NCBI RefSeq assembly: GCF_019739195.1
Contig: NZ_JAHHDS010000003.1
Span: forward strand, 248,001-312,000
From: Microcella sp.
GTDB lineage: Bacteria; Actinomycetota; Actinomycetes; Actinomycetales; Microbacteriaceae
Length of the DNA stretch: 64,000 bases
Direction: 5' to 3'
Below the pieces are notes generated by a model. The model had not been told where the DNA came from, did not search any database, and was given only the letters and a program-made list of their open reading frames with translations. This document shows positions 1-6,646 of the stretch, in pieces. Position 1 is the stretch's first letter, and each line of letters begins with the position of its first letter. Made by a program: the position numbers and the translations under genes.

Positions 1-966
1 CGTCGCGATGATGTTGACGTACGAGCGGAAAGTCGTGTCGTAGCCCGTGCCCCAGCGCAGCGCGATGTCGACGACGCACTCGCGCTCGAGCTCGGTCGGT
101 GTCATGTGCCCGAGCGAGTCGAGCACGGGCACCGTCTCGGTGAAGGTGCCGCTGCCGGTGATGCGCCAGGTGTCGGTGAGCGGAGCATCCGGCGCCAGGT
201 AGTCGGCGTACTGACTGATGCCGCCGTCGAACCGGAACGACTCGGTGAGTGTCGACTCGCCGCGGTCATCAGTGAGCTCGAGCGTGATGCCGGGCACGAG
301 GAAGGCCGTCTGACGCAGGCGGGCGAGCAGTTCTTCGGTGAGGAAGTTCGCACCCTTCGTGAAGATCTGCGGGTCGGCCCAATAGCGGATGCGGGTGCCC
401 GTGACGCCCTTGGCGACTTTGGCGACCTTGCGCAACTCGCTACCCGAGACGAACGGCGAGAACGGTGCATCGGGGCTGGGGCCCTCAGGGCCGTCGGCGA
501 ACACACCAGGCTCGCCACGGTGGAACGACATCGCCCACGTGGCACCGTCGCGGTCGACCTCGACATCGAGTCGTGCGCTGAGCGCGTTGACGACAGAGGC
601 GCCGACACCGTGAAGACCGCCGGATGCGGCATACGATCCCCCGCCGAACTTGCCCCCGGCGTGCAGCTTGGTGAAGACCACCTCGACGCCGCTCAAGCCC
701 GTCTTGGGCTCGATGTCGACGGGAATGCCGCGCGCGCGGTCGCGCACCTCGACGCTGCCGTCGGGGTGCAGCCGCAGGTCGATCTGCGTGCCGTGGCCGC
801 CGAGCGCCTCGTCGACCGAGTTGTCGATGATCTCCCACAGGCAGTGCATGAGCCCGCGCGAATCGGTCGAGCCGATGTACATGCCGGGCCGTTTGCGCAC
901 CGCCTCGAGACCTTCGAGAACAGACAGGTGGCGGGCGGAGTAGTCGGAGCTGGGCACGAGTGTCAT
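1..966 (-). CDS. parE: DNA topoisomerase IV/gyrase-type subunit B (ParE), N-terminal part, cut by window edge
   Basis: This is the ATP-binding subunit of a type IIA topoisomerase, which resolves supercoils or catenanes together with a ParC/GyrA partner in the cytoplasm. The reading frame is open from an ATG at 966 to the window edge (322 codons; the family is about 650-700 residues). It shows the GHKL ATPase order: LEAVRKRPGMYIGST near residue 17, EIIDNSVDEAL with the Mg-binding Asn at about residue 46, DRARGIPVDIEPKTG, then the lid motif GGGSYAASGGLHGVGASVVN and the start of the transducer domain. Microbacteriaceae often carry parE beside the sigA locus, so ParE is preferred to GyrB, but the two cannot be separated with certainty from this part. 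The divergent 247-bp region upstream holds a hairpin and a tandem repeat. Confidence 0.9.
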   Translation of the reverse strand, partial: MTLVPSSDYSARHLSVLEGLEAVRKRPGMYIGSTDSRGLMHCLWEIIDNSVDEALGGHGTQIDLRLHPDGSVEVRDRARGIPVDIEPKTGLSGVEVVFTKLHAGGKFGGGSYAASGGLHGVGASVVNALSARLDVEVDRDGATWAMSFHRGEPGVFADGPEGPSPDAPFSPFVSGSELRKVAKVAKGVTGTRIRYWADPQIFTKGANFLTEELLARLRQTAFLVPGITLELTDDRGESTLTESFRFDGGISQYADYLAPDAPLTDTWRITGSGTFTETVPVLDSLGHMTPTELERECVVDIALRWGTGYDTTFRSYVNIIAT

Positions 967-1213: not shown

Positions 1214-1438
1214 ATGACGCAGATCACGACCGAGAACCCGAGCGTCACGACCGCGCCGCTCACCGCGCTCGACCGCTGCGACAGCTGCGGTGCGCAGGCC
1301 TATGTGCGCGCGACCCTCGCGACGGGCGAGCTGCTCTTCTGCGCCCACCACGCTGCTCGCTTCAAAGAGAACCTCGCCGGCACGGCACTCGCCTGGCACG
1401 ATGAATCGAGCCGTCTGCTCGATGAGCGCGGCGCCTGA
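1214..1438 (+). CDS. DUF7455 small zinc-binding protein
   Basis: A 74-residue protein of a small actinobacterial family often found beside sigA/parE; its function is unknown. After a Thr-rich head it has CDSCG at residues 25-29 and FCAHH at about 47-51, spaced like a CxxC...CxxH zinc site, followed by a helical tail. GAGGGGC lies 6-12 nt before the ATG at 1214 as ribosome-binding site. The 3' end overlaps the start of the next gene (1422) by 17 bp, so the two are probably cotranscribed and translationally coupled. I see no catalytic motif; a structural zinc role is the most that can be said. Confidence 0.8.
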   Translation: MTQITTENPSVTTAPLTALDRCDSCGAQAYVRATLATGELLFCAHHAARFKENLAGTALAWHDESSRLLDERGA

Positions 1439-2069
1439 GCCCTCGGGCGTTCGTCGCGTCGCCCGCCTGTCGGCTCGCGCGCTCGACGAGGCGCTGAGCG
1501 CGCTCATCACTGAGAACGGCGACGCTGCCGAGGTTGACTTGCGCGCCGACGCCTACGGTCACGGGGCGAACGAGGTCGAGCGTCGCGCGCGTGCGCTCGG
1601 TGTCTCCCGATTCATCCGGGATGCTGATGCTTCGCCCGACGTCGACCGAACCTCGGCCATCTTCGGGTTCAGCCCCGGCCAGCCGCCGTTGCTCTCGCTG
1701 ACTGGTGAAGTCGTCGCTGTCAAGAGGGTGGCCGCTGGCACTGCCGTCTCGTACGGGTACACCTACCGCACCACGGGGGCATCGACGCTCGCCCTCGTGG
1801 GCCTCGGCTATGCCGACGGCGTGCCGCGCAGCGCGTCGAGCACAGCGACGGTGCGCGTGGGCGACCAGCGCGGGCTGATTGCGGGCCGTATCGCGATGGA
1901 CCAGCTGGTCGTCGATCTCGGCGACGCCGAGGCGACGGTCGGCGACGACGCGGTGCTGTGGGACGACGCCGAGTCGTTCGCGGGGTGGTGCGCGGCGACT
2001 GGGCGCGCCCCGGCCGAGCTGACCACGCGGCTGGGTCCGCGCATCCGTCGCGTCTGGAGCGATGCATGA
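1422..2069 (+). CDS. Alanine racemase-like protein: intact C-terminal domain, vestigial barrel
   Basis: A 215-residue protein. From about residue 88 onward it matches the C-terminal beta domain of PLP alanine racemases closely: AVSYGYTY (catalytic tyrosine of the two-base mechanism), GLGYADGVPR, GRIAMDQLVVDLGD and TRLGPRIRRVW. The N-terminal part is only about 85 residues instead of about 230 and keeps one remnant, LRADAYGHGANEV, where the PLP lysine of V-K-A-(N/D)-A-Y-G-H-G is arginine. By itself it cannot be a normal racemase. The next gene overlaps by ATGA and has the reverse pattern (intact barrel, missing catalytic tyrosine), so a heteromer with one composite active site is plausible. 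An ATG at 1401 is an alternative start. The frame is uninterrupted, which argues against a recent pseudogene. Confidence 0.8.
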   Translation: MSAAPEPSGVRRVARLSARALDEALSALITENGDAAEVDLRADAYGHGANEVERRARALGVSRFIRDADASPDVDRTSAIFGFSPGQPPLLSLTGEVVAVKRVAAGTAVSYGYTYRTTGASTLALVGLGYADGVPRSASSTATVRVGDQRGLIAGRIAMDQLVVDLGDAEATVGDDAVLWDDAESFAGWCAATGRAPAELTTRLGPRIRRVWSDA

Positions 2070-3133
2070 GCGCGCTCGCGATCATCGATCACGTTGCTTT
2101 CGCCCACAATGTGGGCGTGCTGAGCGCGCGGGTGGCACCCTCTGAGGTCATGCTGGCAGTGAAGGCCAATGCGTACGGGCACGGCATGCGTGAGATTGCG
2201 GCCACGGCACTCGTCTCGGGGGCGACGTCTCTCGCTGTGCTCGAGATTCCCGCCGCGGTCACCCTGCGCGAGGCGGGCGTCGAGTGTCGGCTCTTCGCGT
2301 GGCTGCACGGCATCGACAGCGACTTCGACGCGGCCGTCGACCACCGGGTTGACCTCGGCGTCTCTGCCCACTGGCAGCTCGAGCGCATCGCCCACGCGTC
2401 GACGCGCGAGAATCCGGGCCGGGTGCACCTCAAGATCGACACCGGCCTGCACCGCAACGGCGCCCTGCCCGAGAACTGGCCCGAGCTCGTGACAGCTGCA
2501 CGAACCTTCCGCGAGCAGGGCCTCGTGACCATCGAAGGCATCTGGTCGCACCTCGCCGATGCCTCACCCGACGACGATGCCCGGGCGGTCCACGCCTACG
2601 CGGAGGCTCTCCAGACCGCGGAGGTGCTGGGGGTGAAGCCGGTCATGCGGCACCTCGCCGCCAGTTCGGCGGGCTGGCGCGAACCCCGCGCCCGCTACGA
2701 CGCCGTGCGCTTCGGCATCGCGGCCTACGGCATCTCGCCGTTCGACGACGTGACGGGTCAGGGCATGGGGCTGCGCGCCGTCATGACACTGCAGTGCGCG
2801 GTCAGCCCCGACCCTGCACCTTCTGGCCGGCGGTGGATCACGGCGGGCTACGCACAGGGAGTGCCGCTCGGGGCGCGAGAGGCAGAGGTCTCGATCGGCC
2901 ACCAGCGGTGCGCGGTCGAGAACGTCGAGCTCGCACGCACGCTCGTCGTCGCCCCCGACAGACTCGACGACGACGCGATCGTCACCGTCTTCGGCGAGCC
3001 GGAGACCGGAGTGCCCAGCGCGGAGGACTGGGCACGCTGGAGCGGCACCATTGGTGACGAGATCGTCACGGGAGTGCCCTCGCGGGTGGAGCGCCGCCAC
3101 GACCACGGTCGCGCCGCGCGCAGCGCGGGCTGA
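2066..3133 (+). CDS. alr: Alanine racemase: intact PLP barrel, degenerate C-terminal domain
   Basis: A 355-residue fold-III PLP racemase. The barrel is canonical: AVKANAYGHG with the Schiff-base lysine at residue 33, HLKIDTGLHRNG, EGIWSHLADA, and RFGIAAYGISP before the domain junction. The C-terminal domain keeps GTIGDEIVT and part of GYADG (as AGYAQGVPL) but lacks the segment holding the catalytic tyrosine (VSYGxTY in the family). D-Ala made by Alr feeds peptidoglycan synthesis; the second catalytic base here may come from the preceding gene product, whose stop overlaps this start as ATGA. Another substrate, such as a basic amino acid used in interpeptide bridges, is possible. Stop lies 45 bp before the convergent gatD stop. 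Confidence 0.85.
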   Translation: MSALAIIDHVAFAHNVGVLSARVAPSEVMLAVKANAYGHGMREIAATALVSGATSLAVLEIPAAVTLREAGVECRLFAWLHGIDSDFDAAVDHRVDLGVSAHWQLERIAHASTRENPGRVHLKIDTGLHRNGALPENWPELVTAARTFREQGLVTIEGIWSHLADASPDDDARAVHAYAEALQTAEVLGVKPVMRHLAASSAGWREPRARYDAVRFGIAAYGISPFDDVTGQGMGLRAVMTLQCAVSPDPAPSGRRWITAGYAQGVPLGAREAEVSIGHQRCAVENVELARTLVVAPDRLDDDAIVTVFGEPETGVPSAEDWARWSGTIGDEIVTGVPSRVERRHDHGRAARSAG

Positions 3134-3178: not shown

Positions 3179-3922
3179 TCAGACTGCGACGCCGCCGCGT
3201 CCGAGCCGCGCGGCAATCGCAGCCCGTGCGCGCCGGGCGTGCTCGTCGACCTCGCGCACTCGTTCGTCGGCGGGCGGCAACTGCTGACCGTGTCGGGCCA
3301 GGGCAGCCGCGAGCAGCTCGTCGGCGAGCCACGGATTCATGGGCAGCACCGGCCCGTGCAGGTGCGTGCCGATGAGATGGGCCGCACGAACTCCCTCGGC
3401 CGTCGAGCGCGACGCCGCTGAAGGCGCGCGGTCGAGCTCGACGAGCGGCTCGGCCTCGTGCCGGTCGACGTCGACCGCGTAGTTGAGGTAGCCGGCGAGG
3501 CGGCGACCGTCAGCGGGCATCCCGAGGGCTTCGCCCACCGTTCTCGTCGTGATGTCGCGAATGGTGGCGGGTAGCACGCCGGCCCCCGCCAGCTCGGCGC
3601 CGTCGAGCCCCACGATCGAGCGGCTCAAGGCGTGGAAACCCGCACCGATCCCGATCATCGGAACTCCTGACGAGGCCCAGGCCTGCAACTGGTCTGCGCG
3701 CTCGCCGACATCAACCAGCAGGGCATCGCGAGCCGAGCGCGGCCCGCTGCCGATGTGCACGAGGTCCACGTCGTGCGGCAGACGCTCGCCCGCCTCGACC
3801 GCGACGACCTCGACCGGGATTCCGCGCCACTGTAGCCGCTGGCGCAGCGCGAGCACGTTGCCCGCGTCGCCGTTGATGCCGAGGGCACGCGGATACAGGT
3901 GCAGCACCCGCAGCGCGCTCAC
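3179..3922 (-). CDS. gatD: GatD-like class I glutamine amidotransferase subunit lacking the catalytic cysteine
   Basis: A 247-residue protein homologous to GatD, the glutaminase partner of MurT that supplies ammonia for amidating the alpha-carboxyl of D-Glu in lipid II. It starts with GTG at 3922, overlapping the murT stop as GTGA. The family order is visible: LYPRALGINGDAGN near the N terminus, VHIGSGPRSARD, then MIGIGAGFHALS, where the nucleophile elbow of active enzymes reads I-C-G-G-Y-Q. Position 93 is Gly instead of Cys and the protein has no cysteine at all. The conserved GTHLHGPVLPMNP with its histidine is kept. It therefore should not hydrolyse glutamine; it may be a structural partner of MurT or take another nitrogen donor. 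Confidence 0.85.
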   Translation of the reverse strand: MSALRVLHLYPRALGINGDAGNVLALRQRLQWRGIPVEVVAVEAGERLPHDVDLVHIGSGPRSARDALLVDVGERADQLQAWASSGVPMIGIGAGFHALSRSIVGLDGAELAGAGVLPATIRDITTRTVGEALGMPADGRRLAGYLNYAVDVDRHEAEPLVELDRAPSAASRSTAEGVRAAHLIGTHLHGPVLPMNPWLADELLAAALARHGQQLPPADERVREVDEHARRARAAIAARLGRGGVAV

Positions 3923-5187
3923 GAGCCGCCCTCCAGGTCGAGATAGCCCATCATGAGCCGCAGCTCCATCATGAGTTCGTAGTTCACGATCGCGACCTTC
4001 GGGCCGTCGGTGGGCGCCGGCATCGCGAGCAGGGCATCCACAGCCAGACGGAAATCGTCGATCACCTGCCCCACCGGGATTCCCGCGTAGGCGAGCCGCG
4101 TGGCCCACTGGTGGGCCTTTGTGCCCGTGACAATGTCGACATGGTCGAGGGTCGAGAGGTCGGTGTCGTAGATCCAGGACGGGTCGGGGGTGCCCTCATC
4201 GACTGCGACCATGACGCACTGCGGAACACGCCCGAGTGCATCGAGGTTGAGCTGCAGGCTCGGCGGGTTCTTCATCATGACGAGTTCGATCGCCTGCCCG
4301 CGAGCGTCGAGAATCTCGCCCCGGCCGTACACGGTCTCGAGAGCGCCCAGTGCTGACGACGCGACAGTCGTCGAGAAACGGTCGCCGAGCAGTGCGCGCG
4401 CCGTGGCGATGGCACCGGCCGCATCGACTGCATAGTGCAGACCGCGAGCCGGCAGGGCGACGGATGCCCGCTCGCCGTCGACCGTGAGCTCAGCGGTGTT
4501 CCCCTCCACAGACTCGACCACGACGAGAGGCGCCGGCAGAGCCGCGCTGCCCCGCGTCGCGATGTGCGGAGCGGGCGCAACGCCGTGCGGACTCGCCGCG
4601 AGGGCGACAGGCGAGACGTCGAAAGCGACGAGATCGAGATCGGCTCTCGCCGCGCGCCCGAGATCGGCGGTGTTGGGATCGGCCGCATTGACGATGAGAC
4701 GCCGACGAGCGACGGCGGCGATGCGCTCGAGCATCGCGTACACGCGGTCGGGCTCGTGAAACCGATTGAGCTGATCGATCTGCAGGTTGAGCAGCAGCAC
4801 GTCGGTCGGAGCGAGCCGATCGGCGAGCCCCACGCCGTAGGCCTCGTCGACCTCGAGCACGGCGAGGTCGTCGCGTACGCGGCCATCAAGACCGACGGTG
4901 GCGAGCAGCGACGAGGCGATGCCCTGCGGCAGATTGGCTCCACTGGGATTCGTGAACACGGTCAGACAGTGGGCACGCAGCACGGCAACGAGCATGTTGG
5001 TCGTCGTCGACTTGCCGTTCGACCCGGTCACGAAGACCACGCCGAGTGGCATCGACCCGAGCGCGTGCTCTAAGAAGCCCGGTGCGATGCGCAGCGCGAT
5101 GTTGCCCGGAATCGCCGAGCCGCCGCCGCGCAGTCGCGCCACGACGCGCACGAGTCGACCCACGAGCACCGCCAGGCGGATGCGCAC
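3919..5187 (-). CDS. murT: MurT-like Mur ligase (DUF1727 C-terminal domain), zinc ribbon lost
   Basis: A 422-residue homologue of MurT, the ATP-dependent Mur-ligase-type subunit that activates the D-Glu alpha-carboxyl in lipid II at the membrane. It has the P-loop TGSNGKSTTTNML (about residues 54-66), LEVDEAYG, LLLNLQIDQLNRF, and the C-terminal KNPPSLQLNLDAL and PDPSWIYDTD (carrying the family Asp). The four-cysteine zinc ribbon normally inserted in the middle domain is gone: residues about 190-230 are Ala/Pro-rich without cysteine. Start GTG at 5187 is 10 bp downstream of the sigA stop, so it is cotranscribed with sigA; no clear ribosome-binding site is seen. Together with the altered GatD this suggests changed chemistry. 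Confidence 0.85.
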   Translation of the reverse strand: MRIRLAVLVGRLVRVVARLRGGGSAIPGNIALRIAPGFLEHALGSMPLGVVFVTGSNGKSTTTNMLVAVLRAHCLTVFTNPSGANLPQGIASSLLATVGLDGRVRDDLAVLEVDEAYGVGLADRLAPTDVLLLNLQIDQLNRFHEPDRVYAMLERIAAVARRRLIVNAADPNTADLGRAARADLDLVAFDVSPVALAASPHGVAPAPHIATRGSAALPAPLVVVESVEGNTAELTVDGERASVALPARGLHYAVDAAGAIATARALLGDRFSTTVASSALGALETVYGRGEILDARGQAIELVMMKNPPSLQLNLDALGRVPQCVMVAVDEGTPDPSWIYDTDLSTLDHVDIVTGTKAHQWATRLAYAGIPVGQVIDDFRLAVDALLAMPAPTDGPKVAIVNYELMMELRLMMGYLDLEGGS

Positions 5188-5197
5188 GGTGTTCGAC

Positions 5198-6646
5198 CTA
5201 CTCGAGGTAGTCGCGCAGCGCCTGCGAACGCGAGGGGTGCCGCAGCTTGGCCATGGTCTTCGACTCGATCTGGCGGATTCGCTCGCGCGTCACCCCGAAC
5301 GTGTCGCCGATCTGGTCCAACGTCTTCGGCATGCCGTCACCGAGGCCGAAGCGCATGCGGATCACGCCTGCCTCGCGCTCGGAGAGCGAGTCGAGCAGGC
5401 TCTCGAGTTGCTTCTGCAGCATCGTGAAGCCGACGGCGTCGGCCGGAACGACTGCCTCGGTGTCTTCAATGAGGTCGCCGAACTCGCTGTCGCCGTCCTC
5501 ACCGAGGGGCGTGTGCAACGAGATCGGCTCGCGACCGTACTTCTGCACCTCGATGACCTTCTCGGGGGTCATGTCGAGTTCGCGGCTGAGCTCTTCGGGC
5601 GTGGGTTCGCGACCGAGGTCTTGCAGCATCTGCCGCTGCACTCGAGCAAGCTTGTTGATGACCTCGACCATATGCACGGGAATGCGGATGGTGCGGGCCT
5701 GATCTGCCATGGCGCGCGTGATCGCCTGGCGGATCCACCACGTGGCATAGGTCGAGAACTTGAAGCCTTTGGTGTAGTCGAACTTCTCGACCGCGCGGAT
5801 CAGACCCAGGTTGCCCTCTTGAATGAGGTCGAGGAACTGCATGCCGCGACCCGTGTAGCGCTTCGCGAGCGAGACGACGAGACGCAGGTTCGCGCCCAGC
5901 AGGTGATTCTTCGCGCGCTGACCGTCACGAGCGACCCACGACAGATCGCGGCCGAGGGCCGTACGCTTCTCCTTCTCGGTCATCGTCGAGAGCTTCTCTT
6001 CGGCGAAGAGACCCGCCTCGATGCGCATCGCGAGCTCGACCTCTTCGGCGGCGTTCAGCAGCGGAACCTTGCCGATCTGCTTCAGGTAGTCCTTGACCGG
6101 GTCGGCCGTCGCGCCGGTGATGGTCGTCGAGTAGACCGGAACCTCGTCGTCTTCGGTGTTCGACAGCACGATCGCACCAGTCGGCAACGGGCCAGCCGAG
6201 CCCGAGTCACCCTCGGAGTCGTCGTCATCGTCATCGTCGGAGTCGTCGGCGACCACGATGGTGATCTCCGTCGTCGACGTGTCGTCGTCGGCCGCGATCG
6301 CTTCGGCGGTCGGCTCGACAGACTCGTCCGTCTCGTCGCCCTCGACGCCATCCGTCGCGGGCGAGCTCGCCTTCGTGGCTGTCGATCGCTTCGTGGCGGG
6401 CTTCTTGGGCGCCGTCGACGAGGCTGCGGACTTGGCGCCCGCCGACTTCACGGGCGTCGTCTTCGCGGCTGTGGTCTTCGCCGGAGCAGCCTTCTTTGTC
6501 GAGGCCGCCGTGTCGGTCTTCGTCGATGCCGCCTTCGCGGGCGACGTCGCCTTCGTGGCCGCGGGCTTCTTCGCCGCAGGCTTCTTGGCCGCGGTGCTCG
6601 TGGTCGTGCTCTTAGCGGTCTCGGTGCTGGTCGCTCGGGTAGCCAT
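5198..6646 (-). CDS. sigA: Principal RNA polymerase sigma factor SigA (RpoD/HrdB)
   Basis: A 482-residue primary sigma factor. Residues about 1-95 are an unstructured Lys/Ala/Thr/Pro-rich tail resembling histone-H1 tails, followed by a strongly acidic block ending in [11 protein letters not shown]. The sigma-70 body follows: [16 protein letters not shown] (region 1.2), [17 protein letters not shown] and [20 protein letters not shown] (2.2-2.4), region 3, and [20 protein letters not shown] (4.2). The start at 6646 is chosen because GAGGGGCCC precedes the ATG and the upstream extension is not sigma-like. It leads an operon with murT and gatD. The basic plus acidic head is common in actinobacterial SigA/HrdB proteins. 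Confidence 0.95.

Follow-up and report, generated by a model that had tools for sequence, protein, structure and literature searches.

A MurT/GatD pair without glutaminase cysteine between rpoD and gyrB in Microbacteriaceae: candidate amino-acid ligase for group B peptidoglycan bridges

Introduction

The Mur ligases MurD, MurE and MurF ligate an amino acid or a dipeptide to a peptide carboxyl at the expense of ATP. Group A interpeptide bridges are built by FemAB-family enzymes, and enzymes of the FemABX and D-Asp-ligase types, which are unrelated proteins, act on bridges of this group. Group B cross-linking has long been used as a taxonomic marker of the Microbacteriaceae, and amidation of the D-Glu2 α-carboxyl would block attachment of a group B bridge. 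Genera of this family have B1 or B2 walls with DAB, Lys, D-Lys, Orn or D-Orn, one of the 10 listed being of unknown structure (PMC7033078). The wall varies within Microbacterium (PMC10757982), and that of an Agromyces contains DAB, Ala, Gly and Glu (PMC11294650).

The closest described system is the lipid II amidase MurT/GatD, represented by the S. aureus (6GS2) and S. pneumoniae (6FQB) complexes. When Cys94 of S. aureus GatD is changed to Gly, glutamine-dependent amidation is lost, but MurT goes on using free ammonia at pH 8.5 (PMC3266927); the amine used by MurT thus need not be supplied by the glutaminase. R128 of S. aureus GatD is the Arg that holds glutamine (PMC5871853), R135 of S. pneumoniae MurT is, according to a model, the residue that shuts the gate towards the GatD site (PMC6085368), and a zinc ribbon occurs only in a subset of MurTs (PMC6113224, PMC6085368).

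Here we analyze a MurT/GatD-like pair of Microcella sp. It shares with the described complexes the gene pair, the folds, the ATP and acceptor residues, and the equivalents of the GatD Asp, His and R128. It differs from them by the absence of the nucleophile Cys, of the gate Arg and of the Zn tetrad, by its site between rpoD and gyrB, and by its predicted donor, an amino acid. The Mur fold is common to this MurT and the Mur ligases, but MurT is without most of the N-terminal domain and has GatD as a partner (PMC6113224). The presumed role, addition of bridge residues, is that of the FemABX and D-Asp-ligase enzymes. In a literature search of limited breadth, covering parts of the sources, we found neither a Cys-less MurT/GatD nor a ligase for group B bridges described.

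Results

The Microcella pair retains the ligase residues and has lost the glutaminase nucleophile

In the window, i.e. the whole stretch of 64,000 nucleotides that was analyzed, the GatD-like gene (3179..3922, minus strand, GTG start) codes for 247 residues with a glutaminase fold, and the MurT-like gene (3919..5187, minus strand, GTG start) for 422 residues; the two overlap where murT stops and gatD starts. The initial annotation had described a GatD devoid of cysteine, with Gly93 at the nucleophile position and the His of GTHLHGP conserved. Translation and a phmmer alignment with S. aureus GatD bear this out: MIGIGAGFH is aligned to LTICGGYQ with Gly93 facing Cys94, and His189 is matched by the His of GTHLHGP. 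Microcella carries naturally the substitution made in S. aureus GatD C94G. As the nucleophile is gone, this GatD should not work as a glutaminase. It nevertheless matches Pfam GATase_3 (1.2e-14) and retains the Asp of GDAGN and the Arg equivalent to R128. Its AlphaFold model (pLDDT 95.7) has S. aureus GatD as best PDB match (6gs2_A, TM 0.85).

The MurT-like subunit matches Mur_ligase_M (5.3e-9, 36.8 bits for a cut-off of 24) and MurT_C (6.1e-7, 29.9 bits for a cut-off of 25). It retains the P-loop Lys, Asn85, Asp112 and Glu113 (S. pneumoniae numbers), as well as the Asp equivalent to S. aureus D349, and has Ile at the position of gate Arg135. In its AlphaFold model (pLDDT 92.8), MurT chains are the best Foldseek matches by E-value (TMq 0.47-0.65), the first being S. 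aureus MurT (6gs2_D, 8.3e-22, TMq 0.49), and MurF is matched with a TMq of 0.68 (4qf5_A). Against the NCBIfam isoglutaminyl synthase equivalog this MurT scores 102 bits for a cut-off of 800, a gap to be read beside the mere 182 bits of a MurT accompanied by a Cys-bearing GatD (L058).

The Microcella genome (completeness 100) has one MurT_C match above cut-off and seven GATase_3 matches, among which the GatD of the pair is the only one to cover the domain; from their sequences, we take four of the others to be PdxT, PurQ, HisH and CarA. Neither a second MurT nor an intact GatD was found in this genome; the latter is what the initial annotation had named as counting against its reading, in which the pair ligates an amino acid in place of ammonia.

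Zinc-ribbon cysteines are not a mark of the change

The same annotation held that MurT kept its P-loop and Asp motifs and had lost a four-cysteine insert. The motifs are indeed there and the cysteine tetrad is missing (the two Cys of the protein lie outside the insert), but the insert itself is present, as a Cys-free region of 75 residues in the segment taken. In the family alignment described below, the tetrad is also absent from MurTs of class 1, whose GatD Cys is intact. Among the matches listed, the four-Cys pattern is likewise absent from the canonical Cys-bearing pairs of Arthrobacter, Kocuria, Bifidobacterium, Mycobacterium and Corynebacterium. As many canonical actinobacterial MurTs have no tetrad, its loss is neither linked to the change in GatD nor defining. 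We thus rejected it as a marker of new function, and this part of the earlier proposal falls.

Loss of the nucleophile and of the gate Arg is general to one clade

We extended the comparison to 120 Microbacteriaceae genomes, Microcella sp. included, for which loci were fetched and aligned and a MurT tree was built. Class 2, to which the Microcella pair belongs, has 66 MurT proteins from 65 genomes and forms one clade (support 98/97). Class 1 has 12 MurT proteins, and two genomes carry both classes. A third class is described below. Fourteen genomes fall outside the classes: G005 and G053 have odd MurT types, and 12 have MurT-like matches that are partial or were not fetched. A quick tree was also made with named bacteria, from the best 80 matches (among 79 loci, 16 have MurT without GatD and 3 have neither). 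There class 2 remains a single clade (SH-aLRT 100). Its named members, among the matches listed, are an Agromyces MAG, Amnibacterium setariae and Microcella putealis, by which the family is recognised as Microbacteriaceae. Class 1 is interspersed with Micrococcaceae and Bifidobacteriaceae.

At the nucleophile position, no class-2 GatD has Cys (Gly 46, Ala 13, Ser 3, Asn 2, Thr 1; n = 65, the unalignable L096 being excluded and L098 being a fragment). At the gate position, no class-2 MurT has Arg (Val 32, Ile 20, Thr 6, Leu 2, Asp 2, Ser 2, Gly 1, Glu 1; n = 66). Both residues are kept in 63 of 63 canonical rows, which stand for 62 distinct loci since L105 and L052 are one locus; L114, with its Cys present, was left out of this tally. 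The statement that GatD has no cysteine at all is valid for Microcella and not for the class, where it holds for 17 of 65 GatD segments. Across the order, 149 genomes were sampled and 52 gave matches; among the best 30 loci, which were read, Cys and gate Arg were both found in 24/24 outside the family and both absent in 6/6 inside. Four further family genomes of this sample gave no match.

K59, N85, D112 and E113 are all kept in 66/66 class-2 MurTs. That the pair survives as a decaying relic, or only regulates neighbouring wall genes, could be argued from the lost Cys and from the absence of the catalytic His from 20 of 65 GatDs, but these four invariant residues, the conserved site described below and dN/dS values of about 0.05-0.22 (7 comparisons, 4 genome pairs) make it very improbable. 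The loss of Cys is no local decay and is, from the alignment, general to class 2. A single Cys-less clade with intact ligase residues and low dN/dS indicates that the ancestor of the clade had already lost the glutaminase half and that the ligase half is under selection.

A second possibility is that the complex remains an amidase, fed by free ammonia, with MurT amidating D-Glu2 and GatD serving as scaffold only. Amidation would, however, occupy the carboxyl to which group B bridges are attached. The intact ligase residues are compatible with such an enzyme, as is the ammonia-dependent amidation that S. aureus MurT keeps at pH 8.5 next to GatD C94G (PMC3266927), but the gate Arg is lost in 66/66, and the CofE-like alternative and the racemase-like and EctB-like genes found at the site (see below) would go unexplained. 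We therefore consider an ammonia-fed amidase improbable. Some observations are nonetheless awkward for amino-acid ligation too. The D349 equivalent (66/66 class-2 MurTs) and the GatD His (45/65) are kept though unneeded without Cys, and class 3 retains the gate Arg (7/7). The GatD acid is Asp in 57 and Glu in 6 of 65, and the glutamine-holding Arg equivalent to R128 is kept in 62/65.

The rpoD-gyrB interval houses alternative ligases

In the window, the pair lies between a sigma-70 factor gene of the rpoD/sigA type (5198..6646, minus strand), one border of the cassette, and a gyrase/topoisomerase B subunit gene cut by the window edge (1..957, minus strand), the other border. Genes rpoD and/or gyrB adjoin 64 of 66 class-2 loci and none of the 12 class-1 loci. 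This location is a finding of the present analysis.

It is shared by class 3 (7/7 loci), a separate Cys-less MurT/GatD lineage found in 7 genomes, none with class 2. Class-3 MurT has a Cys-rich insert (3-4 Cys in the segment taken), and class-3 GatD is without both the nucleophile Cys and the His. In the quick tree, class 3 groups, among the matches listed, with Firmicutes rows that are likewise Cys-less. Outside Actinobacteria, a Cys-less GatD was seen with a zinc-tetrad MurT in Bacillota MAGs (L157-L160, L167); by eye, the ORF list revealed nothing informative among the neighbours of these Firmicutes loci. These could represent either an independent loss or a donor lineage for class 3.

No MurT was detected in 22 of the 120 genomes. 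A failure of the search is unlikely, as a 16-row profile gave partial matches only, which by coverage and clustering resemble MurC-F or FolC. A CofE-like gene is present in 17 of the 120 genomes: 16 of these 22, 0/65 class-2 and 0/7 class-3 genomes (CofE-like versus MurT-less, Fisher 3.9e-14, common descent being ignored). Its product matches Pfam F420_ligase, as does CofE, the F420-0:gamma-glutamyl ligase, but with 29 bits for a true-CofE cut-off of 181 it is no genuine CofE; its family differs from that of MurT. In 14 of the 16 MurT-less genomes it lies in the rpoD-gyrB interval (e.g. L196:2260-2964 and L213:3498-4199), in one it is elsewhere (G094), and in one (G044) it is on a contig apart from the truncated rpoD contig. 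Six of the 120 genomes have neither MurT nor a CofE-like gene, and in five of them the rpoD-gyrB interval was read and has no cassette ligase.

The type of ligase changes between close relatives. Among 35 genera with two genomes, both genomes could be classed in 23, and 8 of these 23 genera differ in type: class 2 and CofE in four (g1, that of Microcella sp., g7, g9 and g13, the CofE-like gene of g13 being off the rpoD-gyrB site), class 2 and class 3 in three (g38, g43, g49), and, in g17, a class-1-only genome with an empty rpoD-gyrB site (G016) beside a class-2 genome (G097). The last case may be a switch between groups A and B within one genus. In G053 (L265), a CofE-like gene, a MurT and a GatD are contiguous, and the MurT groups with the Cys-less Firmicutes rows.

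A split racemase-like pair and diamino-acid genes accompany some of the ligases

Between the gyrB border and gatD, the window carries two plus-strand genes. AlrA (1422..2069, start approximate) matches the C-domain of alanine racemase; it has the Tyr motif AVSYGYTY and an Arg at the Lys position, and most of the barrel is missing. AlrB (2066..3133) is an alanine-racemase-like barrel with the PLP Lys (AVKANAYGHG); its C-domain is degenerate and has no SYG Tyr motif. In 30 distinct AlrA/AlrB pairs, the PLP Lys is always on AlrB (25 by pattern, 5 by eye), which never has SYG; the Tyr is always on AlrA (29 by pattern, 1 by eye as SYC), which has no Lys where the motif is recognised. We thus rejected a plain duplicated Alr, each protein being without one catalytic residue; a stronger Alr C-domain match exists elsewhere in the Microcella genome. 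As the active sites of Alr are shared across the dimer interface, AlrA and AlrB could form one composite site, and they are possibly a racemase whose active site is divided between two proteins.

AlrB-like genes occur in the interval of about a third of class 2 (14/25 in subclade Qa, 7/16 in Qc and the single Tw row), and both racemase genes are present in 8 of 16 CofE-type genomes. AlrB-like genes were found in none of the 24 subclade-P loci and none of the 7 class-3 loci; some of the loci counted here, whatever their group, end before gyrB. The intervals of the Agromyces MAG and of Amnibacterium are without the pair.

Two CofE-type genomes have, in the interval, a DAB aminotransferase that scores above the EctB cut-off, and in one MAG (L104) a gene EctB-like by similarity adjoins the class-2 GatD. 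As a general marker EctB was rejected: of 21 genomes that have it, 2 carry it in the interval and 18 elsewhere, and one (G099) could not be placed.

Fem ligases are rare where the cassette is present

FemAB matches were found in 8/10 class-1-only genomes, 6/65 class-2, 0/7 class-3 and 2/17 CofE genomes, and in 3/6 genomes with neither MurT nor CofE; none was found in the Microcella genome. The difference between class-1-only (8/10, leaving 2/10 without FemAB) and cassette genomes (8/89) has a p of 2.9e-6, with common descent ignored. In addition, the interval is empty in all 8 class-1-only genomes read, i.e. it has no seeded cassette gene, and rpoD and gyrB are about 0.6 kb or less apart. The family thus fits a split between group A-like species, with a canonical amidase and usually Fem, and group B species, with the cassette; class was compared with wall type, as published by genus, for three named genera (Agromyces, Amnibacterium and Microcella). 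Exceptions to a role in the bridge are the 6 class-2 genomes with FemAB among 65 and the 24 subclade-P loci without the racemase pair.

This inverse association also bears on whether the pair is a ligase with another target: a side residue off the cross-link (e.g. glycine), another carboxyl or a non-wall substrate. Sequence does not fix the donor or the acceptor, and cassette content varies between genomes, which leaves room for such targets. Yet the MurT-family enzymes closest to it amidate D-Glu2, and the rarity of Fem ligases in cassette genomes argues for the bridge, so that another target is unlikely.

Discussion

We propose that the class-2 pair probably ligates an amino acid, instead of ammonia, to the D-Glu2 α-carboxyl and thereby starts the group B bridge, an activity predicted from sequence. 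It would be an amino-acid ligase that descends from the lipid II amidase. Like canonical MurT, its MurT would phosphorylate the D-Glu2 α-carboxyl of the peptidoglycan precursor; in place of ammonia, an amino acid would then attack the acyl phosphate through its amine and become the first residue of the interpeptide bridge. GatD would stay as a structural partner, perhaps also as a docking site for the donor, as the R128-equivalent Arg is kept. The step from ammonia to amino acid is one that we infer from the Mur-ligase fold, from the lost gate Arg and from the exchange of ligases in a cassette that also holds racemase-like and diamino-acid genes. The initial proposal of amino-acid ligation in a group B wall thus gains genomic support from the loss of Cys and gate Arg beside intact ligase residues, the alternative ligases, the racemase and DAB genes and the inverse Fem distribution, its zinc-cysteine part being set aside.

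The class-3 MurT/GatD and the CofE-like enzyme would then be alternative ligases for the same bridge step, and the composite AlrA/AlrB racemase would supply the D-amino acid (D-Orn, D-Lys or D-DAB). We lean, by a modest degree, towards seeing the rpoD-gyrB interval as a swappable bridge locus, in which three ligase types would attach the first bridge residue to the D-Glu2 α-carboxyl and the split racemase would make its D-amino acid. If true, the cassette would provide the biosynthetic route that group B cross-linking has lacked so far, and would act as a genetic switch of wall chemotype inside single genera.

The analysis offers concrete candidate genes for group B bridge ligation, and a plausible path from amidase to amino-acid ligase by loss of glutaminase and gate residues. 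It may make wall chemotypes predictable from genomes. An 'isoglutaminyl synthase' label, or D-Glu amidation inferred from the presence of murT/gatD, is probably wrong in Microbacteriaceae.

Other features of the interval deserve mention. An ATP-grasp protein is present in 12 of the 14 CofE-type genomes whose ligase gene is interval-borne. Such proteins, of the ATPgrasp_ST type (L196:2995-3960, L203:5701-6696, L254-L257, L260), adjoin CofE-like ligases, four of the seven class-3 pairs and one class-2 pair, and possibly add a second bridge residue. In genus g50 (L214, L216), genes that resemble amino-acid ABC transporters by sequence lie in the interval, at the place taken by the ligase cassette in other genomes. 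Finally, the class-2 pair and AlrA/AlrB are found together in a genome of 0.93 Mb (G015, L087/L259; contig of 927,303 bases).
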